From contig NZ_CP032684.1 of NCBI RefSeq assembly GCF_003627795.1, positions 1,589,001 to 1,653,000 on the forward strand: a DNA stretch of 64,000 nucleotides, read 5' to 3'. The DNA is from Rhizobium sp. CCGE531 (GTDB lineage: Bacteria > Pseudomonadota > Alphaproteobacteria > Rhizobiales > Rhizobiaceae). Below the pieces are notes generated by a model. The model saw nothing but the letters and a program-made list of their open reading frames with translations. It had not been told where the DNA came from and searched no databases. Position numbers and translations under genes: made by a program. Below are positions 3,551 to 61,015 of the stretch, in pieces. Numbering within the stretch: position 1 is the stretch's first letter; each line of letters starts with the position of its first letter.

Positions 3551-3751
3551 ATGGCATCCAAAACGAATCCACTAGCGTTTCTGCAGCAGGTGCGCTCCGA
3601 GACGTCGAAAATTACTTGGCCCTCACGCCGCGAGACCATGATCTCGACGGTGATGGTGCTTGTCATGGTTGTTTTCGCTTCGCTGTTTTTCTTTGCCGCC
3701 GACCAGCTCATTGGCTGGATTCTCGGCTACGTACTGAATACCGGCAATTGA
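3551..3751 (+). CDS. secE: Preprotein translocase subunit SecE
   Basis: This 66-aa single-span inner-membrane subunit clamps SecY in the SecYEG channel. The sequence has the hallmark FLQQVRSETSKITWPSRRET amphipathic helix, followed by one membrane helix at about 37-60. It is the short, one-TM form, unlike the three-TM E. coli protein. ATG 3551 places the family's conserved block at the expected distance from the N-terminus. nusG follows after 18 bases, the classical secE-nusG pair. Confidence 0.96.
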   Translation: MASKTNPLAFLQQVRSETSKITWPSRRETMISTVMVLVMVVFASLFFFAADQLIGWILGYVLNTGN

Positions 3752-3769
3752 TATCGGGTGGAGATGAAC

Positions 3770-4300
3770 ATGGCGGCACGTTGGTACATCGTCCACGCTT
3801 ATTCTAATTTCGAAAAGAAAGTGGCTGAATCCATTGAGGAGAAGGCCAGGCAGAAGGGTCTCGAGCATCTGTTCGAGAGGATCCTTGTGCCGACCGAGAA
3901 GGTCGTAGAGGTCCGTCGCGGCCGCAAGGTCGATAGCGAACGCAAGTTCTTCCCGGGTTACGTGCTGGTGCGCGCCAACCTGACGGACGAAGCCTACCAC
4001 CTAATCAAGAATACGCCGAAGGTGACTGGCTTCCTCGGCTCTGACAATAAGCCCGTTCCGATTCCGGATTATGAAGCCGAGCGCATTCTCGGTCAGGTCC
4101 AGGAAGGTGTCGAGCGGCCGAAGGCTTCCGTATCCTTCGAGATCGGCGAGCAGGTCCGCGTTTCCGATGGTCCGTTCGCTTCGTTCAACGGCACGGTTCA
4201 GGATGTGGACGAAGAGCGTTCGCGCCTGAAAGTGGAAGTGTCGATTTTCGGCCGCGCTACGCCGGTCGAGCTGGAATACAGTCAAGTCGAGAAAGTTTGA
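3770..4300 (+). CDS. nusG: Transcription termination/antitermination factor NusG
   Basis: 176 aa. The N-terminal NGN domain (MAARWYIVHAYSNFEKKVAE) binds the RNA polymerase clamp; the C-terminal KOW domain (IGEQVRVSDGPFASFNGTVQ) contacts Rho or ribosomal S10. Length and both domains are normal. ATG 3770 is preferred over in-frame GTG 3758 and ATG 3764 because GGTGGAG ends six bases before it and the family starts at MxxRWYIVHAYS. Confidence 0.97.
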   Translation: MAARWYIVHAYSNFEKKVAESIEEKARQKGLEHLFERILVPTEKVVEVRRGRKVDSERKFFPGYVLVRANLTDEAYHLIKNTPKVTGFLGSDNKPVPIPDYEAERILGQVQEGVERPKASVSFEIGEQVRVSDGPFASFNGTVQDVDEERSRLKVEVSIFGRATPVELEYSQVEKV

Positions 4301-4316
4301 TTGTGTCCTTTATGAG

Positions 4317-4345
4317 GGGTCGGCCTGGCGGCTGACCTTTCGTTT
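4317..4345 (+). terminator. Weak stem-loop after nusG
   Basis: GGTCGGCC and GGCTGACC (one G-U pair) form an eight-pair stem followed by TTTCGTTT. The U-tract is broken, so this may attenuate rather than end transcription into rplK. Confidence 0.4.
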
Positions 4346-4514
4346 GAGTTTGGATATGAGTAATTGCTTACTTATATCTCGCGGCGAAGCCGCAATCCGC
4401 GTGGAAGGATAGGGTCTTAGCCGGGCCTGATGATCCGCACCACGCAACCGCAGCCGCCGGAGCGATCCGGCATTAGTCGACCGGGTAACCGGTCATGTAG
4501 AAAGGCAGAGAGAA

Positions 4515-4946
4515 ATGGCTAAGAAAGTTGCAGGCCAGCTCAAGCTGCAGGTCAAGGCCGGCTCGGCGAATCCGTCGCCGCCGATCGGTCCTGCGCTTGG
4601 TCAGCGTGGCATTAACATCATGGAATTCTGCAAGGCGTTCAATGCCGCCACGCAGGAAATGGAAAAGGGTATGCCGATCCCGGTCGTCATCACCTACTAC
4701 CAGGACAAGTCCTTCACCTTCATCATGAAGCAGCCGCCGGTCAGCTACTTCCTGAAGAAGGAAGCGAAGATCCCGTCCGGCTCGAAGACCCCCGGCAAGG
4801 GCGCCAAGGCTGGCACCCTCACCAAGGCTCAGGTGAAGTCTATCGCCGAAGCCAAGATGAAGGATCTGAACGCCGCCGATATCGAAGGCGCAATGGCCAT
4901 GATCGAGGGCTCTGCCCGCGCCATGGGCCTGGAAGTGGTGGGTTAA
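4515..4946 (+). CDS. rplK: 50S ribosomal protein L11
   Basis: 143 aa with the highly conserved N-terminal [19 protein letters not shown] (22-40), which forms the thiostrepton/stringent-factor interface with 23S rRNA, and a C-terminal rRNA-binding domain ending MGLEVVG. AGAGAGAA precedes the ATG. rplA begins four bases after its stop, so L11 and L1 are made as a pair. In other bacteria L1 represses this message; no specific L1 site was identified here. Confidence 0.98.
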
Positions 4947-4950
4947 GACC

Positions 4951-5652
4951 ATGGTAGCAAAGCGTATTCAAAAGATTCGTGAAGGCGTTGATCCGACCAA
5001 GCTCTATGCTCTGGATCTGGCCATCAGCATGGTCAAGGAACGTGCCGTCGCCAAGTTCGACGAAACCGTCGAAATCTCGATGAACCTCGGCGTTGACCCG
5101 CGTCATGCCGACCAGATGGTTCGCGGCGTCGTCAACCTGCCGAACGGCACCGGCCGTACGGTTCGCGTTGCCGTCTTCGCTCGTGGCGTCAAGGCTGACG
5201 AAGCCAAGGCTGCAGGCGCTGACATCGTCGGCGCGGAAGACCTGGTCGAAATCGTTCAGGGCGGCAAGATCGACTTCGATCGCTGCATCGCCACCCCGGA
5301 CATGATGCCGCTCGTCGGTCGTCTCGGTAAGGTTCTCGGCCCGCGCGGCATGATGCCGAACCCGAAGGTCGGCACCGTCACGATGGACGTCAAGGGTGCT
5401 GTCGAAGCATCCAAGGGCGGCGCTGTCGAGTTCCGCGTCGAGAAGGCTGGTATCATCCATGCCGGTATCGGCAAGGCTTCCTTCGACGCCAAGGCTCTGG
5501 AAGAAAACATCCGTGCCTTCGCCGACGCCGTCATCAAGGCAAAGCCGGCTGGCGCCAAGGGCAACTACGTCAAGCGCGTAGCGATCTCTTCGACCATGGG
5601 TCCGGGCGTCAAGATCGAGCCGTCGACGGTTACGGCGCCGGGCGCCCGATAA
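4951..5652 (+). CDS. rplA: 50S ribosomal protein L1
   Basis: 233 aa, full length. L1 builds the mobile L1 stalk at the E site and acts as translational repressor of its own operon in well-studied species. The signature [15 protein letters not shown] is at about 131-145, and the conserved [20 protein letters not shown] C-terminal strand is present (read here as [16 protein letters not shown]). No deviation from the family is seen. Confidence 0.98.
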
Positions 5653-5980
5653 GTTCTGCTAGGCCCTGCGCCTGGTATTTTAAGAATTCCCGGCCTTTCG
5701 GGGCCGGGATTTCCGGAGAAATCCGGAATTCCTGTCCGAGATTGCAGGTGGTTATCCCTTAATCACTTAAGCCTGCATGAGACGGGTAAGACCCGAATTT
5801 TGAAGAAGCATCGCTTCGATGAACTCGGTTCGAGCCTTGGATGCCTTGTGCCTTGGAGCCTTTCGGCTCGAGCGCGAGGGGACAGGATCCTCAAGCGTCG
5901 CTTGGGATCTGAATTGATCCCAGGAGGCAAAGGCAACCCGGCAGGTCCGTTAATCCGGTCCTGTCAACTGGAGAAAAGCA
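5653..5980 (+). promoter_or_regulatory. rplJL leader region with several stem-loops
   Basis: This is 328 bases without a gene. CCCGGCC-TTTCG-GGCCGGG at 5689-5708 forms a strong hairpin just after rplA, and TTCCGGA-GAAA-TCCGGAA at 5711-5728 forms a second. Further structure near 5862-5908 includes CAAGCG/CGCTTG. GGAGGC at 5921 and GGAGAA at 5970 precede the L10 GTG. L10-L12 autoregulates through a leader of this kind in other bacteria, which makes this the likely control site; the exact binding fold was not matched. Confidence 0.45.
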
Positions 5981-7201: not shown

Positions 7202-11344
<4,143 letters not shown>

Positions 11345-17596: not shown

Positions 17597-19696
17597 ATGG
17601 CTCGCGAATATAAAATCGAAGACTACCGCAATTTCGGTATCATGGCGCATATCGACGCCGGTAAGACCACCACCACCGAGCGTATTCTTTACTACACCGG
17701 CAAGTCGCACAAGATCGGCGAAGTGCACGACGGTGCGGCCACCATGGACTGGATGGAGCAGGAACAGGAGCGTGGCATCACGATCACCTCCGCTGCCACC
17801 ACGACCTACTGGAAGGGCCGCGACGGCAAGACCCGCCGCTTCAACATCATCGACACCCCCGGCCACGTCGACTTCACCATCGAAGTCGAGCGTTCGCTGC
17901 GCGTTCTCGATGGCGCCATCGCTCTGCTCGATGCCAACGCAGGCGTTGAGCCGCAGACGGAAACCGTCTGGCGTCAGGCTGAGAAGTATCATGTTCCACG
18001 CATGATCTTCTGCAACAAGATGGACAAGACCGGCGCTGACTTCTACCGCTCTGTCGAGATGATCAAGACCCGCCTCGGCGCCATCGCCGTTGTCATGCAG
18101 TTGCCGATCGGTGCGGAAACCGAATTCAAGGGCGTTGTCGATCTGATCGAGATGAATGCTCTCATCTGGCGCGACGAATCGCTCGGCGCTCAGTGGGATG
18201 TGGTCGAAATCCCGGAAGACATGAAGGCAAAGGCAGCCGAGTACCGCGAAAAGCTGATCGAGGCCGTTGTCGACATCGACGAAGCCGCGACTGAAGCCTA
18301 TCTGGAAGGTATTCTGCCTGACAACGATCAGATCCGTGCGCTCGTTCGCCGCGGCACGATCGACGTCAAGTTCCATCCGATGTTCTGCGGCACTGCCTTC
18401 AAGAACAAGGGTGTACAGCCGCTGCTCGACGCCGTTGTCGACTATTTGCCGTCGCCGCTCGACATTCCGGCGATCAAGGGTATCGACGTCAAGACCGAAG
18501 CTGAGATCGAGCGTCATCCTGATGACAGCGAGCCGCTTTCCATGCTCGCCTTCAAGATCATGAACGACCCCTTCGTCGGTTCGCTGACCTTCGCCCGCAT
18601 CTACTCCGGCAAGCTTGAAAAGGGCACGTCGGTCATGAATACGGTCAAGGACAAGCGCGAGCGTGTCGGCCGTATGCTGCAGATGCACTCGAACTCGCGT
18701 GAAGACATCGAAGAAGCTTTCGCTGGCGACATCGTCGCTCTGGCCGGCCTCAAGGAAACCACCACTGGCGATACGCTCTGCGACCCGTTGAAGCCGGTTA
18801 TCCTCGAGCGCATGGAATTCCCCGAGCCGGTCATTCAGATCGCCATCGAGCCGAAGACCAAGGGCGACCAGGAAAAGATGGGCCTCGCGCTCAACCGTCT
18901 GGCTGCCGAGGATCCGTCCTTCCGCGTAAAGACGGACCAGGAATCGGGCCAAACGATCATCGCCGGTATGGGTGAGCTTCACCTCGACATCATCGTCGAT
19001 CGTATGCGTCGTGAATTCAAGGTCGAAGCAACTGTCGGCGCGCCGCAGGTTGCCTACCGCGAAACCATCACGCGTCAGACGGAAAAGGACTACACCCACA
19101 AGAAGCAGTCGGGTGGTACTGGTCAGTTCGCTCGCGTCAAGATCGTGTTCGAACCGAACCCGGAAGGCGACGACTTCAAGTTCGAGTCGAAGATCGTCGG
19201 TGGTTCTGTTCCGAAGGAATACGTCCCGGGCGTTCAGAAGGGCATCGAGAGCGTTCTGTCTTCGGGTCCGCTGGCTGGCTTCCCGATGCTCGGCGTCAAG
19301 GCGACGCTCATCGATGGTGCCTTCCACGACGTCGACTCGTCGGTTCTGGCCTTCGAAATTGCTTCGCGCGCTTGCTTCCGTGAAGCAGCCCGCGAAGCAG
19401 GCGCCCAGCTCCTCGAGCCGATGATGAAGGTCGAAGTCGTGACGCCGGAAGATTACGTCGGCGACGTCATTGGCGACCTGAACTCCCGTCGTGGCCAGAT
19501 CCAGGGCCAGGAAAGCCGCGGTATCGCCGTTGTCATCAACGCGAACGTCCCGCTGGCGAACATGTTCAAGTACGTCGATAACCTGCGTTCGATGTCTCAG
19601 GGTCGTGCACAGTACACGATGACCTTCGATCATTACGCGCCGGTTCCGTCGAACGTCGCACAGGAAATCCAGGCAAAGTATTCCGGTCAGAAGTGA
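17597..19696 (+). CDS. fusA: Elongation factor G
   Basis: 699 aa GTPase that drives ribosomal translocation. G1 is [15 protein letters not shown] (about 16-30), switch II is DTPGHVDF, and the base-recognition motif is NKMD. Domains II-V follow at normal length, including the [12 protein letters not shown] segment of domain IV. GGAAAGG lies upstream of the ATG. It is the third gene of the rpsL-rpsG-fusA-tuf operon; only this fusA copy is visible here. Confidence 0.98.
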
Positions 19697-50479: not shown

Positions 50480-51496
50480 CTAGGCCGCATCCTGCTGGTT
50501 CTTTTGGTCGAGCTGCGTGACCAGCGCCAGGATGGTTGCCGAGACCGGCGTCGGCACATTGGCGAGCTTGCCGAGCGAAACGACGACACCGACGAGCGGC
50601 GTGATTTCCAATGCCTTGCCGGCAAGCAGATCCTGCAGCATCGAGGTGCGCACAGGGCCAATCTGCCGCGAGCGCTCAACGCGTTCTTCGACCGACATGG
50701 CGATATGCGATCCCAAAGCCTCGGCGACGGCCTTCACCTCACTCATCACCTGGCCGACCATGGCTGCCAGCGCCGGGTCATCCATAATGTCGGACATCAA
50801 TCCGCGGGTGAGCGCACTGATCGGGTTGAAGGCGGCGTTGCCCATCAGCTTGCTCCAGATATCGTCGCGAATGCGCATGGAAATGGAGATGTTGACGCCT
50901 GCGTTCCGCAGCAGTGCCGCGATGCCTTCTATGTCGGCGGTCGTTTCGCCGGACGGCTCGCCAAGGATGAAATGGCCGTTGTTGGCGAGCTTGATCTCGC
51001 CTGGGCCGACAACTTCCGCTCCCTGATAGGCAACGCAACCGATCACGCGCTCAGGCCCGACCAGGCGCCAGAGATCGCCGTTCGGATCGAGCTCCTCCAT
51101 CTGGTGCTCGGCATGGCCGCTTTGCCTGTCCCGGTGAAAATACCACCACGGCACGCCGTTGAGGATCATGACGACGCGGGTGCCCGAATGCAGCAGTTTC
51201 GCAATGCCGGGGACGGCTGCGGCAAGCTGATGGCCCTTGAGCCCGGTGATGACGAGATCCTGCGGCGGTAGCTCGCCCGCATCGGCTGTTGCCGTCATCC
51301 GCGCCACAAGCGGGTTGTCCGCGCCGGCTTCCCAGAGGCGTATGCCGTCAGCGCGAATGGCCTCCAGGTGAGCTCCGCGAGCGACGACAGAGATCTGCGT
51401 CTCCGCTCCCTGGGAGGAAGCGAGCTTTGTGGCGATCGCGCCACCCAGCGCGCCGGCGCCGTAGACACAGATGTTCTTAAAGGGAGAGGATGTCAT
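50480..51496 (-). CDS. Ketopantoate-reductase-like oxidoreductase
   Basis: 338 aa of the ApbA/PanE family. Rossmann motif YGAGALGG (12-19), central KLMGNAAFNPISAL with the conserved Lys/Asn pair, and a C-terminal helical domain with SMLQDLLAGKALEITP are present, so the fold and active site look intact. PanE makes pantoate, but several paralogues reduce other 2-keto acids; the genomic setting with a DapA-like gene hints at keto-acid metabolism rather than pantothenate alone. Confidence 0.88.
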   Translation of the reverse strand: MTSSPFKNICVYGAGALGGAIATKLASSQGAETQISVVARGAHLEAIRADGIRLWEAGADNPLVARMTATADAGELPPQDLVITGLKGHQLAAAVPGIAKLLHSGTRVVMILNGVPWWYFHRDRQSGHAEHQMEELDPNGDLWRLVGPERVIGCVAYQGAEVVGPGEIKLANNGHFILGEPSGETTADIEGIAALLRNAGVNISISMRIRDDIWSKLMGNAAFNPISALTRGLMSDIMDDPALAAMVGQVMSEVKAVAEALGSHIAMSVEERVERSRQIGPVRTSMLQDLLAGKALEITPLVGVVVSLGKLANVPTPVSATILALVTQLDQKNQQDAA

Positions 51497-51639
51497 GGCT
51501 TGGTGCTCCGAATGAGATCGCGTGCTCAGAAGAGATATGTCGCGCTTTCGATTTAACGAAGGGTCTTTTAGATTTCAGGCAATTGGAATTGAAAATCGCC
51601 GAACCTTCCTCCACACTACATGCTTATGGAAGTTTCACC

Positions 51640-53646
51640 ATGCTCGCCCAGGCGCGAATGAGGGCGATCGGCAAGGAAAATCCCTCCCGGCCGTCACGGG
51701 TTCGTGCGGATTTCGTGAACAGGATCATGTTTTCACTACATACATTGGGCGGCCTTAGACTTCTGGACAGCGATGGTCGCGAGGTCGCCTTTCCCGAAAA
51801 GGGCTTGTTGATCCTGACCTATTTGATGGCGGAGCCGCCGGCGCGCACGTCACGCAGCGCGATCGCCCGGCTTCTATGGGGGGATGACAATGGCAGCGCG
51901 CAGGTCAATCTGCGCAAGCTGGTTTCGCGGATAAGGGGCCGCCAGGCAGCTCTCGGCAGGTCGTTCCTTCGTTTCAGCGAAACGATCGTGGAACTCGAAG
52001 CGCCTCCGGAAGCCATAGACATGCCGCTTGCGAACACGGAACAGGCTGAGCCGACCGTTGCGAGATTGAGAGGGCTGATGAAAGCGCTCGAGGCGGAGTT
52101 CCTGCCGGAGGTCGATTGTCAGAGCGCGGTTTTCTTTCACTGGCGCAAGGCGCAAAGGCGGCGCCATGCCGATATGCTGAAGGAAACGCTGACTGCCGCT
52201 GAGGCCCAGGTGAGCACCGTAGAGGATGCCGCACTGGTGAAGGAGGCAGCGCTTCTGATCCTCGGCCTCGATCCGGAGGATCGGGATATCCATCGCATCC
52301 TGCTGCGGATATTCGAAGCCGCGGGAGAGGTGGAACACTTCAGGCGAATATTCGAGCAGCGTTCAGAGCTGTTGTCGTCATGGTCGGCGCGGTGGCGGGA
52401 CGCTTCGGCAGGTGACGTGGCTGCAGACGCTCCTCCCGGCAGCCGGGTGTCGGGCAGGCCGCCGAAGGCGCGCATACCCCTAATTCTCCTGTCATCCTCG
52501 GAAAAGCAAGGCGCAGGATACGACGCCTCATCGCTGATGAGCGATATCACTGTCGGCTTCTGCGCCTTGGAGAGTCTCGACATTGCAGATCGCTGCACGG
52601 CGGTCCGGGTCGGCAGGGTCGGGGAGCGTGCTGTCGCAACGTTCGATCGATGGGATCGCTCTTACATTCTCGAAATGCGCCTCAGCGTTCGTGATGACGG
52701 ACCGCTGCTGTTTTCGCAATTGGTCGATGCCGCCAGCGATGAGGTCGTCTGGGCGGAGCGCATCAGCCTTGGACAGTCCTCTCCGGAACAGCAGAGGCAG
52801 ATGGTGACGCGCCATATCGTGCTATCCCTGGCAGGACAGATCGAACGTCGGGAGATGATGCGGTCTCACTTCGAAAAGGACCTGACAGCCTATCAGCGCT
52901 ATCTTGCCGGAAAGCGTCACCTTGCTCGTCTCTCGGTGCCAAGCCTGCAGGAAGCGCGGGTAGAACTCAAAGCCGTGCTGGAAAGCAGCGGCCATTTCGC
53001 CCCCGTCCTGAGTTCCATTGCGCGAACCTACTCCAAGGAATGGGTGCTGACATCGGGTAGCGACGCGGCCCTGCTGGACGAGGCCGAGAACTATGCGATG
53101 CGGGCCATTGCGGCCCGGCGCGATATCGCCGACGGCTATCGCGAACTGGGCATGACGAAGACCTTGAAGAAGGCGAATGAGGAGAGCATAGAAGCGCTGA
53201 AACTGGCCGAAGCCCTCAATCCGGGCCATGCCGGCATCATTGCCGACCATGCCGAAGCATTGCTGCATTCCTCGCGGCCGGATCTTGCGCTGAGGAAGAT
53301 CGAAAGCGCCATCGCGCTCAATCCGGCCAGCCCCGACACGTATTTCTGGACTGCTTCCGTGGCGAGCTACACGCTCGGCCGCTTCGAGGCAGCTCTCGAT
53401 TATATCGGCCGCATGGTCGATTCACGCTTGGCGGACAGGATTTCCGCGGCGAGCCTGGCAATGCTCGGAGAAGAGGAAAGGGCCGGCTTCTTCGTCCGGC
53501 GGGTTCAAAATACCCATCCGGATTTCGACATCGATCGCTGGATTTCCGTCGTGCCGTTCAAGGAGCAGTGGCAACGCGACATCTATCGCGAAGGGCTGCA
53601 ACGCGCCGGCTTCTGGAAACCTGTTTCGAACCCGATCCAGGTATAG
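51640..53646 (+). CDS. SARP/HilA-like transcriptional regulator with TPR repeats
   Basis: 668 aa from ATG 51640 (GGAAG seven bases upstream); the conserved region begins at MFSLHTLGGLRLLD (ATG 51727), so the real start could be either. Order: OmpR-type winged helix (about 30-115, with SAIARLLWGDDNGSAQVNLRK quoted in part), a bacterial activator helical domain (about 140-255), a TolB-like strand segment (IPLILLSS onward, about 290-420), then TPR repeats (about 470-590). No cyclase or kinase domain. It precedes the four-gene membrane operon by 189 bases on the same strand and may regulate it. Confidence 0.75.
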   Translation: MLAQARMRAIGKENPSRPSRVRADFVNRIMFSLHTLGGLRLLDSDGREVAFPEKGLLILTYLMAEPPARTSRSAIARLLWGDDNGSAQVNLRKLVSRIRGRQAALGRSFLRFSETIVELEAPPEAIDMPLANTEQAEPTVARLRGLMKALEAEFLPEVDCQSAVFFHWRKAQRRRHADMLKETLTAAEAQVSTVEDAALVKEAALLILGLDPEDRDIHRILLRIFEAAGEVEHFRRIFEQRSELLSSWSARWRDASAGDVAADAPPGSRVSGRPPKARIPLILLSSSEKQGAGYDASSLMSDITVGFCALESLDIADRCTAVRVGRVGERAVATFDRWDRSYILEMRLSVRDDGPLLFSQLVDAASDEVVWAERISLGQSSPEQQRQMVTRHIVLSLAGQIERREMMRSHFEKDLTAYQRYLAGKRHLARLSVPSLQEARVELKAVLESSGHFAPVLSSIARTYSKEWVLTSGSDAALLDEAENYAMRAIAARRDIADGYRELGMTKTLKKANEESIEALKLAEALNPGHAGIIADHAEALLHSSRPDLALRKIESAIALNPASPDTYFWTASVASYTLGRFEAALDYIGRMVDSRLADRISAASLAMLGEEERAGFFVRRVQNTHPDFDIDRWISVVPFKEQWQRDIYREGLQRAGFWKPVSNPIQV

Positions 53647-53835: not shown

Positions 53836-55284
53836 TTGCGTTTCGAAGCCCTCAACCGTCTCTGGGACAGCGTTCGGGAGACCAGCCATGATTTCCGTGC
53901 CTCGACGGACGTTTTTCCCGTCGTCGACATCGAAAAGCTCGGTGCGACCCTCGACCTGAAGGAAAAGGGTGCCGCCGCCGGGCGCGAGAACCGGCCGCCG
54001 CCGGATGCGCAGTCGCATGACGAGACGGAGCAGCGTATCGTCGCCTGGGTTGAGGCGGAAAAGAAGAGTTCCTACCAGATCCTCGAAGACCAGTTCCAGA
54101 CCTTCGACAGCCGCCTGCGCAACCTCGATTTCGAGGGCCAGTTCGGGCTGATACGCCAGGCGAACGCCTCCAGCATCTCGGATTTCAAGGCGGAAGTCGC
54201 AAGCGGCGTCGATGAACTTCACGGTCTGCGCCGCAAGCTGAAGACGGCCGAGGATGAAATGGTGGGCTTCAAGGCCAGGCACAAGCTGCAGCGCGCCGCG
54301 AAGGTTTCCAGCAAAGCTGCTTGGGGTTTCAAGGTCTCGTTGATCGTCTTCCTCGTCCTCATCGAAATGGTGATGAACGGCAGCTTTCTCGCCAAGGGAA
54401 GCGAGCAGGGCATCGTCGGCGGCGTGACGGAGGCGGCCGCCTTCGCCTTCCTGAACATCGGCGCTGCGCTGATATTCTCTTTCTTCTGCGTCCGCTTCCT
54501 GGTGCATCGATCCTTTGCGCTGAAGCTGCTCGGTCTCCTCGGTCTCGTCGCGTATGTCGCCGTGGCCTTGGGGATCAACATCGTGCTGGCGCATTATCGC
54601 GAGGTCTCGGCGACGATCCTGAGCGGAGCCGGTGCCGAAGTGATTCAGCGCCTGAAGGCAACACCTCTCGGACTGCAGGAACTGAACTCCTGGATGCTCT
54701 TTGCCGTCGGCCTGATGTTCTCACTCGTCGCCTTCATCGACGGCTGCTATCTGACCGATCCCTATCCGGGCTTTGCCGGCGTGCAGAAGCGCCTCGATGC
54801 GGCGAGAGACAATTACATCGACCGCAAGCTCGATCTGATCGAAGCCCTGCGCGAGATCCGCGACGAGCACAACGGCAAGATCGAGGAAATCATCCGCGAC
54901 CTTTCGCTGCGCCGGCAGGAGACATCAGCCATCATCGCTCATCGCGCCAGGACGGCGGGTCTCTTTGCCGAACATCAAAACCATCTCGAGCGCGCCGCCA
55001 ATGTGCTGCTCACCTCCTACCGCGATGCCAACAGGGCCGCACGCACCGAGCCGGAACCATCCTACTTCAAGGATGCCTATAAGATGGAGCGGCTGACGCC
55101 TGTCATGCGCAGCGAAGAGGAATGGGACGACAAGGTTCTGGGCTCGCGCATCCAGGGCGCACAGGCGGAATTGTCGGAGCAGATCAAGCGGATTGGCGAG
55201 GAATTCGAGCGCGCCATCGAGAAATACCATCAGCTCGACAGTCTTTTCCCGGAGAGCATCCTTGGCGCGACGCAAGCGGCGTAG
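53836..55284 (+). CDS. Four-TM coiled-coil membrane protein (gene A of unknown operon)
   Basis: 482 aa from TTG 53836 (GGGGAAGA upstream). The cytoplasmic N-terminal half is acidic and helical (to about 150); TM helices lie at about 163-181, 200-224, 228-252 and 285-304; a long charged helical region follows (315-475, likely coiled coil). No enzyme motif was recognised. It overlaps the next gene by 23 bases. The arrangement with a VWA-like protein and an OmpA/MotB-like protein suggests an envelope-spanning complex. Confidence 0.7.
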   Translation: MRFEALNRLWDSVRETSHDFRASTDVFPVVDIEKLGATLDLKEKGAAAGRENRPPPDAQSHDETEQRIVAWVEAEKKSSYQILEDQFQTFDSRLRNLDFEGQFGLIRQANASSISDFKAEVASGVDELHGLRRKLKTAEDEMVGFKARHKLQRAAKVSSKAAWGFKVSLIVFLVLIEMVMNGSFLAKGSEQGIVGGVTEAAAFAFLNIGAALIFSFFCVRFLVHRSFALKLLGLLGLVAYVAVALGINIVLAHYREVSATILSGAGAEVIQRLKATPLGLQELNSWMLFAVGLMFSLVAFIDGCYLTDPYPGFAGVQKRLDAARDNYIDRKLDLIEALREIRDEHNGKIEEIIRDLSLRRQETSAIIAHRARTAGLFAEHQNHLERAANVLLTSYRDANRAARTEPEPSYFKDAYKMERLTPVMRSEEEWDDKVLGSRIQGAQAELSEQIKRIGEEFERAIEKYHQLDSLFPESILGATQAA

Positions 55285-56080
55285 CCGGCGCGGAGGATCC
55301 GCCGGCCTCATCATCGCAACGGTTTGTCTCGCGGTCCTGTCCCTCGGGATCGTCGGCGCCTATGGCTGGCTGCGCTACAAGGCGAGCGGCAATATCGCGA
55401 TCGACCAAGCCTCGCTTTGCCCGGTGGACGGGCCGAAGGCGGAAACCGCCATCCTGCTCGATGTCACCGATCCGATATCAGACACGACGGCGCTTGATCT
55501 GCGCAACCAATTCCAGAAGATCGTGACTGATGTGCCGATCGGCGGCGCGATCGATATCTATGCGCTGACCGAAAAGGAGGGCGAGCTGATCCAGACCTTC
55601 CATGGCTGCAACCCGGGAAGCGGCACTAATGTCGATGAATGGACCAGCAATCCTCGCCTCGCGCAGGCGCGGTGGGAAAAGGGGTTCCAGAAGCCGCTCG
55701 CCGATATCGCCGGCAAGCTGACCGCGGGCGAGTCAGGCAGGCTGTCGCCGATCATGGCAGGCATCCAGAAGATCAATCTCGAAGTCTTTGCCAACGCGCC
55801 AGCAGGCTTGTCGAAGCGCCTCTACATCGCCTCCGACATGATCGAGCACACTGCCGCCTTCTCGAACTACCGGGATGGCGTCTCCTATCAGAAATACCAG
55901 CATAGCCCGGCAAACGACCGGTTTCGCACATCATTGAATGGGGTCACGGTCAAGATCCTTGCCTTTCAAAGGCCGAACATGAAGTTCAGCATGGAGGACC
56001 TTGCGAACTTCTGGGCGCAATGGATCAAGAACAGCAACGGTGATTTCGGCGGCTTCGTGCGGTTGGAGGGGATACGCTGA
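55262..56080 (+). CDS. Membrane-anchored VWA-like protein (gene B)
   Basis: 272 aa from TTG 55262, six bases after GGAGAG. A very basic N-terminus (ARRKRRSRR) precedes a TM helix (15-37), so the rest is predicted periplasmic. The domain has a degenerate MIDAS-like pattern: ILLDVTDPIS with Asp67/Thr69/Ser73, a Ser162 segment (LSPIMAGI) and Asp192 (YIASDMIEHT). This suggests a von Willebrand A fold that binds metal and a partner. TTG is the best start seen and is not certain. Confidence 0.65.
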   Translation: MARRKRRSRRGGSAGLIIATVCLAVLSLGIVGAYGWLRYKASGNIAIDQASLCPVDGPKAETAILLDVTDPISDTTALDLRNQFQKIVTDVPIGGAIDIYALTEKEGELIQTFHGCNPGSGTNVDEWTSNPRLAQARWEKGFQKPLADIAGKLTAGESGRLSPIMAGIQKINLEVFANAPAGLSKRLYIASDMIEHTAAFSNYRDGVSYQKYQHSPANDRFRTSLNGVTVKILAFQRPNMKFSMEDLANFWAQWIKNSNGDFGGFVRLEGIR

Positions 56081-57018
56081 TGGCCGGCACCGAAGCGAGA
56101 TACCTCATCCGGGATTACGGGCCGATGGTGCTCTTCGCATCCATCACCATCGGCGGCATGATCTTCATCTGGTCGTCGAAACTCATGGGCTGGTCGTTGC
56201 CTGTCGTGACAGGCATACCGCTTCTGCTGATGGCGATCTATTTCATTGTGTCGCTGGCGGTTGCTGGGTTCCGGCTGCATAACGAGCAGGCGGGCGACAA
56301 CCTCTACTACATGGGTTTTCTCTTTACCCTGTCGAGCCTGGGCGTGTCGCTCTATCTCTTTGCAGGCGAAACATCGATCGAGACCATCGTCCGCAATTTC
56401 GGCATTGCCGTCACCTCGACCATTGCCGGCGTGACGCTGCGCATTCTCTTCAACCAGATGCGGCGTGACCCGATCGACATCGAGCGCAGCGTCCGGCATG
56501 AACTTGCCGAGATGACACGGCGCGTGCGCACCGAACTCGACTCGTCATCGCGCGAATTCTCCCACTACCGGCGTGTCAGCAACCAGATGCTGTCGGAAGG
56601 GTTCGAGGAGATCGCGCGGCAGGCCGAGCGCAACGGCCAGGAGATCAACAAGATCCTGGAAATGCTGGCAAAGCAGGCGGTGACCCCGATCAACGACGCG
56701 GCCGCGCAGCTGACGGCAACGACCACGCAATTGTCCGAGATCATCGGCACCTTCGGTGCCGCCGTCGAGAATGTCGGCAGGAAGCTGGAAGAGATCCGCT
56801 CGCCCGAGGATGTCGTGCGCGCCGAGCTGGCGCCGGCGATCAGTGCCATCAAGGAGATGTCGGAGGCGCAATTGCAGCCGCTGCGCAATATCGAGGCGGC
56901 ACTCGGCCGTATGGCGGAAGCGATGGGGCAGGCGCCGCCGCGATCCACTGCTGCTGACCTCGGGGCAGAGCCGGTGAGTGAAGCAGCGCCACGAAAACGT
57001 TGGTGGCATCTATGGTAG
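56080..57018 (+). CDS. Four-TM coiled-coil protein, stator-like (gene C)
   Basis: 312 aa; ATG overlaps the previous stop by one base after GGAGGGG. TM helices at about 15-33, 40-63, 74-95 and 104-124; the fourth, FGIAVTSTIAGVTLRILF, resembles the Thr/Gly-rich pore helix of MotA/TolQ/ExbB-type proteins, by inspection only. A long coiled coil (about 134-290) then projects into the cytoplasm. This layout, with gene D, recalls ZorA or MotA, although ZorA has a different helix order. Confidence 0.6.
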   Translation: MAGTEARYLIRDYGPMVLFASITIGGMIFIWSSKLMGWSLPVVTGIPLLLMAIYFIVSLAVAGFRLHNEQAGDNLYYMGFLFTLSSLGVSLYLFAGETSIETIVRNFGIAVTSTIAGVTLRILFNQMRRDPIDIERSVRHELAEMTRRVRTELDSSSREFSHYRRVSNQMLSEGFEEIARQAERNGQEINKILEMLAKQAVTPINDAAAQLTATTTQLSEIIGTFGAAVENVGRKLEEIRSPEDVVRAELAPAISAIKEMSEAQLQPLRNIEAALGRMAEAMGQAPPRSTAADLGAEPVSEAAPRKRWWHLW

Positions 57019-58025
57019 CAAATGGCTCGGACATTCAGCCGAAAATGGAGCACAAGGGCTACAATCGTGGCCTGATCCTTGGCCTGACGATGGCCGAATC
57101 CATGCTGCTTCTGGTCTTCTGCCTGCTGCTCGTGGCCGCTGCCTTGATTTCCGCGGAGAGAAACCGGCGCTACGAGGTCGAGCGCAAGCTCGAGAAGGCC
57201 GAACAGCAGGTCGCCTTGCTGGAGAAGAAGCGGGCCGAGCAGACCGCCGAGATCGTGCTGCTGCAATCGAAGGTCGTTTCCGGCGATCTCTCCGCCGCCG
57301 ATAAGGCCGTGGTGGACAAGCAATGGCGGGAACTGGTGCTGGCGAAGGAGGCACTCGACAGCATCACGGACCAGGGAGCGACCGCGGTCGATCTGCAGTC
57401 GCTTTCCAAGGTTGCCGCCGCTCTGAAGGAGCACGGCGTCTCGATGGCGGCAGCTCCCGACCAGATCGATAAGTTGCTGGCTGAAAGCGGGGGCGGGAAG
57501 GGCATGCACGACTGGCCGCCCATCATCAATCTCGACGATGCCAAGAAGAATTATTTCCAATCGGGAAGCGCCGAGCTCACCGGCACCTTTTCACAGCTGC
57601 TCGGCACGACGATTACCGACGAAATCGCCAGCAATCTGAGCCTTTATGGCGCCAATATCGTCGAGGTGATCGGCCACACGGACGAACAGCCGGTGGCGCG
57701 TGAAAAGTCCAACCTCGACGATACGATCATCAACGCGATGGACGGCAAGCTGCCGGTATCGGCCCTGCTTCCGGCCGACAATGCCGGGCTCGGCCTTGCG
57801 CGCGCCATTGCCGTCGCCAATGTGCTCAAGGCCAACCCCAAGCTCAAGGGCGCCACCATCCTGCCGATGTCCGCCGCACAGTTGATCCTGCCCGGCGATA
57901 CCGTCACCTCAGGCCAGCGCGGCGCCGTCGAGGCACGCCGCCGCATCGAAATCCGCGTGCGTGGCAGGACGGCACCGGTTGCCGTGATCAACGCCGGTGC
58001 CGCGCCCTCGACCAATACGCAATAG
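57012..58025 (+). CDS. OmpA/MotB-like peptidoglycan-binding membrane protein (gene D)
   Basis: 337 aa from ATG 57012, seven bases inside gene C. A short cytoplasmic N-terminus, then one TM helix (about 21-48) with Glu29 in TMAESMLLLVFCLLLVAA, the position where MotB and ZorB carry a proton-binding Asp. A periplasmic coiled coil (50-115) leads to a C-terminal OmpA domain (about 171-317): NYFQSGSAEL, EVIGHTDEQPV and EARRRIEIRV. It should anchor the complex to the cell wall. Confidence 0.8.
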   Translation: MVANGSDIQPKMEHKGYNRGLILGLTMAESMLLLVFCLLLVAAALISAERNRRYEVERKLEKAEQQVALLEKKRAEQTAEIVLLQSKVVSGDLSAADKAVVDKQWRELVLAKEALDSITDQGATAVDLQSLSKVAAALKEHGVSMAAAPDQIDKLLAESGGGKGMHDWPPIINLDDAKKNYFQSGSAELTGTFSQLLGTTITDEIASNLSLYGANIVEVIGHTDEQPVAREKSNLDDTIINAMDGKLPVSALLPADNAGLGLARAIAVANVLKANPKLKGATILPMSAAQLILPGDTVTSGQRGAVEARRRIEIRVRGRTAPVAVINAGAAPSTNTQ

Positions 58026-59931: not shown

Positions 59932-60378
59932 CTAGGTCACCGACTCATAAGATCGTAGCCAGATACGAATTGAGGCGAGCTGGATAGATGCGAGGAAGTT
60001 GTCGTCGCGTTTGTCATATCGTGTTGCGATGGCCCGGAAGTGTTTGAGTTTGTTGAAGAACCGCTCGACAGCGTTGCGTTGTTTGTAGAGCCGTGAGCTG
60101 AAGGCAGGAATATTGACCCTGTTTGGCATGGGACGGATACAGCCCCATGCTCCACGTGCTTTGAGGTCTTGTCGCAGCCTGTCGCTATCATAAGCGCGAT
60201 CAGCCAGAAGTATTTGACCGGGCCCGATGGTCGCAAACATATCGGTCGCCGAGCGTCCGTCATGGGCCTGTCCGGCTGTCAGCTTTAAGCGGATCGGTCG
60301 GCCATCGGCATCGACAAGAGCATGGATTTTGGTTGTCAGCCCGCCGCGCGAGCGACCCATGCAACCGGATCGCTCGTC
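59932..60378 (-). CDS. IS427-like transposase, ORFB part
   Basis: Continuation frame of the transposase after a -1 shift, 148 residues. Contains the second DDE residue (LLADRAYDSDRLRQDL) and the catalytic Glu (RNAVERFFNKLKHFRAIATRY). The TAG stop at 59932-59934 is made of the duplicated TA target plus one flanking base, so the stop codon depends on where the element inserted. Confidence 0.85.
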   Translation of the reverse strand, partial: DERSGCMGRSRGGLTTKIHALVDADGRPIRLKLTAGQAHDGRSATDMFATIGPGQILLADRAYDSDRLRQDLKARGAWGCIRPMPNRVNIPAFSSRLYKQRNAVERFFNKLKHFRAIATRYDKRDDNFLASIQLASIRIWLRSYESVT

Positions 60379-60701
60379 TTTTTTTGACCGTTGGCAGCAT
60401 GTTGGTGAACGCGGATCGACGAGCTGTCGATCATCTGGATGTCGCCATCGTAAGCTTCTGATATTGCATCGAGAATACGTGCCCAATGCCCCGCGTGACG
60501 CCATCGGTTAAAGCGGTTGACACAGGTCGTATAAGGGCCATAGCGCGCGGGAATATCCGCCCACGGCGCACCAGTTCTCAGCCGCCAGAAGATCCCATTC
60601 AATACGCGTCGGTCATCAACGCGGGCCTTACCACGAACCTTTGTCGGCAGAAGGGGTTCGATCACCGACCATTCGAAATCCGTCAAATCAAAGCGCGCCA
60701 T
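60336..60701 (-). CDS. IS427-like transposase, ORFA part
   Basis: ATG 60701 follows GGAGG. Reads ARFDLTDFEWSVIEPLLPTK, then WRLRTGAPWADIPARYGPYTTCVNRF and the first DDE aspartate in QMIDSSSIRVHQHAANG. Ribosomes that do not shift end at 60336 (121 aa). At the heptamer A AAA AAG (60384-60378) a -1 shift joins ORFB to give a 256-aa enzyme; this fits known members but was not tested. Confidence 0.9.
   Translation of the reverse strand: MARFDLTDFEWSVIEPLLPTKVRGKARVDDRRVLNGIFWRLRTGAPWADIPARYGPYTTCVNRFNRWRHAGHWARILDAISEAYDGDIQMIDSSSIRVHQHAANGQKKTSDPVAWVARAAG
60378..60384 (-). other. Slippery heptamer for -1 frameshift in transposase
   Basis: The plus-strand run of seven T (60379-60385) gives A-AAA-AAG in the ORFA frame on the minus strand, the classical simultaneous-slippage site. 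Frame continuity on both sides confirms the -1 direction. Confidence 0.8.
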
Positions 60702-61015
60702 CTCTGCCTCCAAGCCTGACAGACAGAGAATCACAAATCATTCAAATCCAAAACTATTTTATGGGTATGTGACCTAGAATCAAATAGGTAGAGCATGGTT
60801 TCGTAGCCAGCAGGCACGGGGAAAGCGTGGCGTCAGGGAGGGTGGCTATGGCGTTTTTTTGCGCGAGATCCCTGGAAGTTCGAGGGACTGTTCTTCAAAC
60901 GAGGATTTTTTCGTGATCGCGACGGATTTTTCGCTGCTCCATCGTTCAAGCAGCGAGCTCACCGGTTGACGCCTGATCGGATGAGCATGTTCAATCAAAG
61001 CGCGGTAACCATACG

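Follow-up and report, generated by a model that had tools for sequence, protein, structure and literature searches.

The window analysed here is the whole stretch of 64,000 nucleotides from Rhizobium sp. CCGE531 (G000:C1:1589001-1653000, in a genome of 7.14 Mb and 5 contigs), and our subject is a four-gene operon, A-B-C-D, that lies at positions 53836-58025 of its + strand. Since contig C1 measures 4.0 Mb, this copy of the operon is, by inference, chromosomal. Gene A (53836..55284, +, TTG start, 482 amino acids) encodes N- and C-terminal helical regions around four transmembrane (TM) helices; gene B (55262..56080, +, TTG start, 272 amino acids), a von Willebrand A-like (VWA) domain preceded by one TM helix at the N-terminus; gene C (56080..57018, +, ATG start, 312 amino acids), a ZorA/MotA-like protein with four N-terminal helices and a coiled-coil tail; and gene D (57012..58025, +, ATG start, 337 amino acids), a MotB/ZorB-like protein with a TM helix, a coiled linker, and an OmpA-like domain. 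An earlier reading of the letters of this DNA, hereafter the sequence-only reading, had reported overlaps between the four genes, and the coordinates confirm them at 23 (A/B), 1 (B/C), and 7 (C/D) bases. Purifying selection acts on all four genes, with ratios of nonsynonymous to synonymous substitution rates (dN/dS) against five relatives of 0.04-0.13 for A, 0.07-0.13 for B, 0.07-0.15 for C, and 0.10-0.26 for D. A consensus promoter scan gave no promoter for the operon.

Protein D has a single TM segment at residues 30-48 (TM segments were called by hydropathy, and overlapping windows were merged by eye), and the GAA codon of Glu29, at the start of this helix (57096-57098, +), specifies a residue that is invariant in 40/40 D sequences. 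Residues 181-288 (57552..57875, +) match the OmpA-like peptidoglycan-binding domain in Pfam and profile searches. The PF00691 match of D alone reaches 25.7 bits, just below the cut-off of 27.2, while the profile of the D family matches MotB, PomB, and ZorB structures significantly, with E values of 2e-7 for a solved OmpA-like domain and 6e-7 for type II ZorB. Among relatives of D, the OmpA match is above the cut-off in L144, L202, and L203 and below it in L141 (27.0) and L145 (19.1). By these comparisons of sequences and profiles, D carries a MotB/ZorB-like OmpA domain; the description of D in the sequence-only reading, as a protein with one TM helix, Glu29, and a C-terminal OmpA domain, is thus borne out, as is the conservation of Glu29 in homologues on which its stator proposal leaned. 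The N-terminus of D is predicted to lie inside, and the OmpA domain, together with any fused nuclease, outside. Three D homologues (L137:12063-13070, L138:12007-12897, and L139:11958-13112) keep the TM-Glu motif and have a different C-terminal region with a CW motif; no OmpA match was present among their Pfam hits. The combination of a TM helix with an OmpA-like domain is also found in the long form of TssL from type VI secretion, whose model TIGR03350 gives 28.5 bits with D against a cut-off of 139.8, but the cassette has no other type VI secretion gene. Among the eight annotated loci, a VgrG gene is present only in L039 (Paracoccus aminovorans), at 3683-5770, about 0.9 kb before A.

Protein C was compared mainly through its AlphaFold model, in which N-terminal helices at residues 2-36, 40-64, 68-94, and 100-128 are followed by a long helical tail. 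The sequence-only reading had assigned four TM helices to both A and C; hydropathy agrees for A, but for C it gives just three segments above the threshold, and the fourth helix comes from the model. Superposed on type II ZorA, the model of C matches 95 of 99 residues at 2.4 Å with weak fold statistics, and the structural comparison aligns residues 39-133 of C with residues 1-99 of ZorA. The helical core of MotAB/PomAB is also matched, and TolQ/ExbB chains are recovered as well. C therefore appears, from its predicted structure, to be a ZorA/TolQ-type monomer, less firmly supported than the fold of B described below. The proposal that C is a MotA/TolQ-like stator subunit stands to this extent, that the monomer models in the expected way, and falls short in that the fold statistics are not strong. 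T83 and T114, invariant in 37/37 sequences, lie in helices 3 and 4 (residues 68-128; 56281..56463, +), and by analogy with Zorya these helices are expected to line the ion path.

At the level of sequence, C scores far below curated ZorA models (NF033914, 9.3 bits against a cut-off of 190; PADLOC ZorA2, 10.8 bits, E 0.037), and sequence-profile tests against MotA and TolQ could not be separated from controls, apart from a suggestive ZorA score; the link to TolQ was not above the null. PF01618 is absent from the Pfam matches of C at E values up to 1, and a search of its own genome with this family gives three places, none of them at C. A profile search of the PDB with C was set aside, as its matches were mainly to coiled coils in the tail. 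A third protein of the MotA_ExbB family (G000:C1:3153995-3154258; L191), about 350-380 amino acids in length, occurs in those genomes of the genus that were searched and exceeds the TolQ- and MotA-type matches in size. C and D share with MotAB/PomAB the helical core and the TM-plus-OmpA design, but in C helices 2 and 3 do not enclose a cytoplasmic domain of notable size, no MotB plug was matched at E values up to 1, and no flagellar gene is named in the eight annotated loci. The likeness to TolQR/ExbBD is limited in a similar manner: TolR and ExbD are not known to end in an OmpA domain, as D does, and no TolA or TonB gene is named in the same eight loci.

The remaining two proteins are A and B. 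No known family was found for A, whose profile search of the PDB gave a single coiled-coil match (E 0.02), and neither A, B, nor C gave a match above the curated Pfam or NCBIfam cut-offs, with only weak coiled-coil scores in PADLOC. The TM segments of A lie at about 167-185, 201-219, 234-252, and 288-306, and a DPYPG-type motif located after the last of them is conserved. B has a single TM segment at residues 14-32, and, according to its structural model, the domain that follows is a VWA domain with a Rossmann-like fold, which we take to be periplasmic. A complete metal ion-dependent adhesion site (MIDAS) consists of the elements DxSxS, T, and D. In B, D67, D70, S162, and D192 are invariant in 47/47 sequences; the first two belong to a DVTD stretch (55460..55471, +) whose pattern, DxxD, departs from the canonical DxSxS, and the codon of D192, the third MIDAS-like position, is at 55835-55837 (+). 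B had been described beforehand as TM-anchored with a degenerate MIDAS, and the analysis upholds this.

To define the distribution of the operon, homologues were gathered from scans of genomes, plasmids, and contigs. A scan of genome contigs for the A family contributed the best 80 of 110 relatives, and these loci, 9 loci from plasmids, and loci taken from genomes with their flanks make up 124 contexts, in which some genomes are present twice, so that not all are distinct. All four families are present in 113 of the 124, and 113/113 of these keep the order A-B-C-D with every gene on the same strand (in L233, where the C frame extends beyond D, the order was judged by start codon). The other 11 contexts comprise nine with A-B only, one with A alone, and one with A-B-C, the last two at contig ends. 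The genes are therefore kept together rather than scattered, on which the sequence-only reading had staked its four-gene complex. Because the four frames are under purifying selection and recur as a unit in other genera, we consider it confirmed that A-B-C-D is a conserved cassette of alpha-proteobacteria, beyond what chance would give. The nine stand-alone A-B pairs, with no recognisable C or D (L142, L143, L204, and L239-L244), lie in several cases amid housekeeping-type genes; by eye, the pair in L142 adjoins caspase-like and FGE-sulfatase-like genes. Three copies contain genes broken into two frames (B for L085, C for L110, both B and D for L111), and these copies may be decaying or mis-sequenced.

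The presence of the cassette is patchy. With the own genome included in all counts, C was found in 32 of 120 relatives, 30 of them within the genus, where 20 listed genomes are without it. A is present in 25/397 genomes at the level of the order, 13/385 of the class, and 10/398 of the phylum, and all ten phylum carriers belong to the class of the window. The A proteins closest to that of the window, at 95-96% identity, come from tropici-type Rhizobium. An A that is 95% identical also occurs on L075, a 4.9 kb contig of a Micrococcales metagenome-assembled genome from another phylum, probably a contaminant. For the phylogenetic tree of A, 117 contexts were reduced to 62 rows by merging those with A more than 90% identical and an equal nuclease state; L115, L144, and L244 (A short or missing) and L070, L075, L094, and L140 (short contigs or contig ends) were left out. 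Of these rows, 7 have A-B only and 55 have A-B-C-D; among the latter, 32 include a nuclease, either linked or fused. Rhizobium and Sinorhizobium copies are mixed together in the tree, and this mixing and the patchiness point to horizontal spread of the cassette. No match to A was found in phage records, and no relative of D was confirmed in viral contigs.

C also occurs on 24 plasmid records, of which MOB-suite classifies 11 as conjugative and 4 as mobilizable. These 15 records, and an A-B pair (L240) that by eye adjoins genes resembling a type IV secretion coupling protein and a relaxase, are what could be expected if the complex served in conjugation control or plasmid entry exclusion, sensing mating channels while a periplasmic nuclease cuts the transferred DNA, or with A-B aiding transfer. 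We regard this as unlikely, given that the window copy is on a contig of 4.0 Mb, that the 31 loci of its clade have flanking genes in common, and that no transfer gene is named in the eight annotated loci or in a further annotated neighbourhood that was viewed.

In relatives, the operon has nuclease partners. A gene of the staphylococcal nuclease (SNase) family lies no more than 3 kb from the operon in 43 of the 124 contexts, in four arrangements. With a flank profile built from 31 neighbours, SNase matches numbered 43 at 0-3 kb (697 kb of sequence), 0 at 3-6 kb (657 kb), and 1 at 6-10 kb (452 kb). The 12 linked or fused proteins scanned all exceed the 21-bit cut-off of PF00565, and the R, D, E, and R columns, which we take to be R35, D40, E43, and R87 of SNase, are invariant in 45/45 aligned sequences, fused copies included and three weak or partial matches omitted. 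In four genomes (L141, L144, L145, and L202) the SNase is fused to D as a C-terminal domain, after the OmpA-like region, and in L203, from the same taxonomic family as L202, the SNase position of D is taken by a GmrSD_C HNH domain (44.2 bits, cut-off 23). On the A tree the state "nuclease linked" has to change 12 times. The tree, which lacks L144, contains three SNase-fused rows, and these need three changes, two of which are forced by well-supported branches. L032 and L072 have nearly identical A proteins and an adjacent SNase gene in just one of them, which by this comparison is a recent gain or loss of the nuclease. The earlier statement that no flagellar, Tol, or Zorya effector gene adjoins the operon fits the window, but the sequence-only reading missed the nuclease of the relatives, which is an SNase from a neighbouring gene or a domain of D, either SNase or HNH. 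In L122 (Aureimonas), a gene of HSDR_N type, resembling the N-terminus of a restriction enzyme, lies directly before A (8685-9770) and is possibly another nuclease partner.

The link between motor and nuclease is well supported for the family by these sequence data, and our favoured reading, to which we assign a probability of about 0.6, is that the cassette encodes an ion motor of 5:2 type akin to Zorya, that its nuclease effector lies outside the cytoplasm and can be exchanged, and that the system probably serves in defence against incoming DNA. One observation weighs against it. In 76 of the 124 contexts no linked SNase or HNH was found, a set that includes 8 whose flank on one side is shorter than 3 kb, 9 with A-B only, and 31 from the clade of the window itself; the window and its clade are thus among the contexts with no linked nuclease found. 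The genome of the window has three SNase matches, none inside the window. Both the nuclease-free contexts and the constraint on the core genes of the nuclease-free window clade would suit an envelope-maintenance or Tol/Ton-like force device without nuclease function, for which the neighbouring SNase genes would be a coincidence and the fusions accidents of late date. Such a device sits poorly with 43 matches within 3 kb against one at 3-10 kb, in four arrangements, and with fusions in different parts of the tree and the HNH domain that takes the SNase position in L203, and its patchy presence counts against a housekeeping role; we consider it unlikely.

The location of the nuclease bears on another alternative. 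By eye, the N-termini of the linked SNases resemble signal peptides or a TM anchor, and the fused copies are at the predicted periplasmic end of D, so that the nuclease looks extracytoplasmic. The same would hold if the motor energised an envelope complex for nucleic-acid scavenging, taking up or degrading environmental DNA that the secreted nuclease digests; many hosts are soil and plant-associated bacteria, and a ComEC-annotated gene (18389-18801) about 6 kb after D in L036 (Microvirga) would agree with DNA uptake. However, ComEC is found in only one of the eight annotated loci, none of which has a named nucleotidase or phosphate-transport gene, and the patchy, plasmid-borne distribution and the exchange of nucleases look more like those of conflict systems. 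Scavenging is, in our estimate, improbable.

The favoured reading of a motor with a nuclease effector can be put as a mechanism. C and D would form an ion-driven motor of the Zorya/MotAB type in the inner membrane, with the 5:2 stoichiometry suggested by fold, conserved residues, and topology, and the OmpA domain would tie D to peptidoglycan. A, with its four TM helices and helical arms, and the membrane-anchored periplasmic VWA protein B may be a separable pair, for sensing or as an adaptor, by which the motor is gated, with sensing through B and through the contact of D with peptidoglycan. The sequence-only reading, whose interpretation is partly supported as a whole, had put forward A as a putative cytoplasmic partner and B as a putative sensor. 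The trigger would be a perturbation of the wall or envelope, for example by phage DNA injection or a conjugation channel. The output would be a non-cytoplasmic nuclease, either an SNase, secreted or anchored in the membrane, from a gene next to the operon or a nuclease domain (SNase or HNH) that D itself bears at its periplasmic end, which the active motor would position, expose, or release at the breach, on the periplasmic side, and incoming DNA would be cut. Because no nuclease is linked to it, the window copy would be core-only, its nuclease lost, supplied in trans, or not needed. The defence role itself is inferred.

To our knowledge, no defence system other than Zorya relies on a 5:2 ion motor; ZorE has an HNH fold. 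The cassette resembles type II Zorya (ZorA-ZorB-ZorE) in the predicted MotA-like minimal membrane core and long helical tail of C, in the single-TM partner D with an acidic residue and an OmpA-like domain, and in its putative nuclease output, which in one relative (L203) is an HNH domain. It differs in the conserved A and VWA-type B proteins, which come in addition, in the extra first helix of C, and in the Glu of D, where ZorB has Asp. As described in PMC11890865, Zorya depends on ion flow, on the tail of ZorA, and on the attachment of ZorB to peptidoglycan, and the ZorA tail, which is cytoplasmic, is proposed to recruit ZorE, whereas the nuclease of the cassette looks extracytoplasmic and is sometimes fused to D. 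VWA proteins are also present in the MoxR-vWA ternary systems, which, in PMC7159879, are treated as probable conflict systems; the cassette has no MoxR-type ATPase, and B is TM-anchored and partnered with a putative membrane motor.

Although its outline resembles Zorya, the operon cannot be filed as Zorya by the features tested, because C scores far below the curated ZorA models, the stretches of neighbourhood that were inspected showed no Zor effector, and A and B come on top of the Zorya set. There is a real chance that the cassette is a distinct class of its own. More tentatively, and at somewhat less than even odds, it would represent a new class of immune machine, in which the axle of a rotary ion motor, anchored in peptidoglycan, bears a periplasmic nuclease or passes the task on to one. 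The nuclease would destroy foreign DNA while it crosses the envelope and before it reaches the cytoplasm, and SNase and HNH domains would be swapped on an A-B-C-D chassis with a VWA sensor. No earlier description of the operon or of a motor-nuclease fusion was found among the results listed by searches of the open full-text literature, a scope outside which most subscription papers and preprints lie. If the favoured reading is true, such motors have been recruited for nucleic-acid defence in more than one manner, on both sides of the inner membrane, and rhizobial operons, chromosomal or plasmid-borne, whose genes are now labelled "hypothetical protein" acquire a function. The D-nuclease fusions offer a direct handle on how motor rotation is converted into nuclease action, a question that Zorya poses.

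Genes around the operon were compared with known defence systems. The PADLOC scan covered 122 neighbour proteins from 14 loci (7 proteins from the window), and 25 of the 41 families matched are listed, most with one to three members; among these, PD-Lambda-2_B occurs in two neighbours and AbiEii in one. Twenty neighbours scanned singly gave one WYL/Cas3-type match and one PD-Lambda-2_B match, and all these counts are to be read as having no background rate. The PD-Lambda-2_B match is L114:4932-6086 (E 4e-107), about 3.9 kb before A. No Zor effector is named among the 25 listed families or in the annotated neighbourhoods viewed.

No clean empty site was found beside the orthologous ABC-F gene in eight genomes without the operon, over about 13 kb each, where the other flanking genes tested were absent. 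Directly upstream of A in the window is a large regulator-like gene (51490-53646) with weak Trans_reg_C and TPR matches, which could control the operon. Its cluster is found near 19 loci, 18 of them from the window clade and the other being L122. Downstream of the ABC-F gene, at 59932-60734 of the window, fragmented transposase-like reading frames can be recognised by eye.

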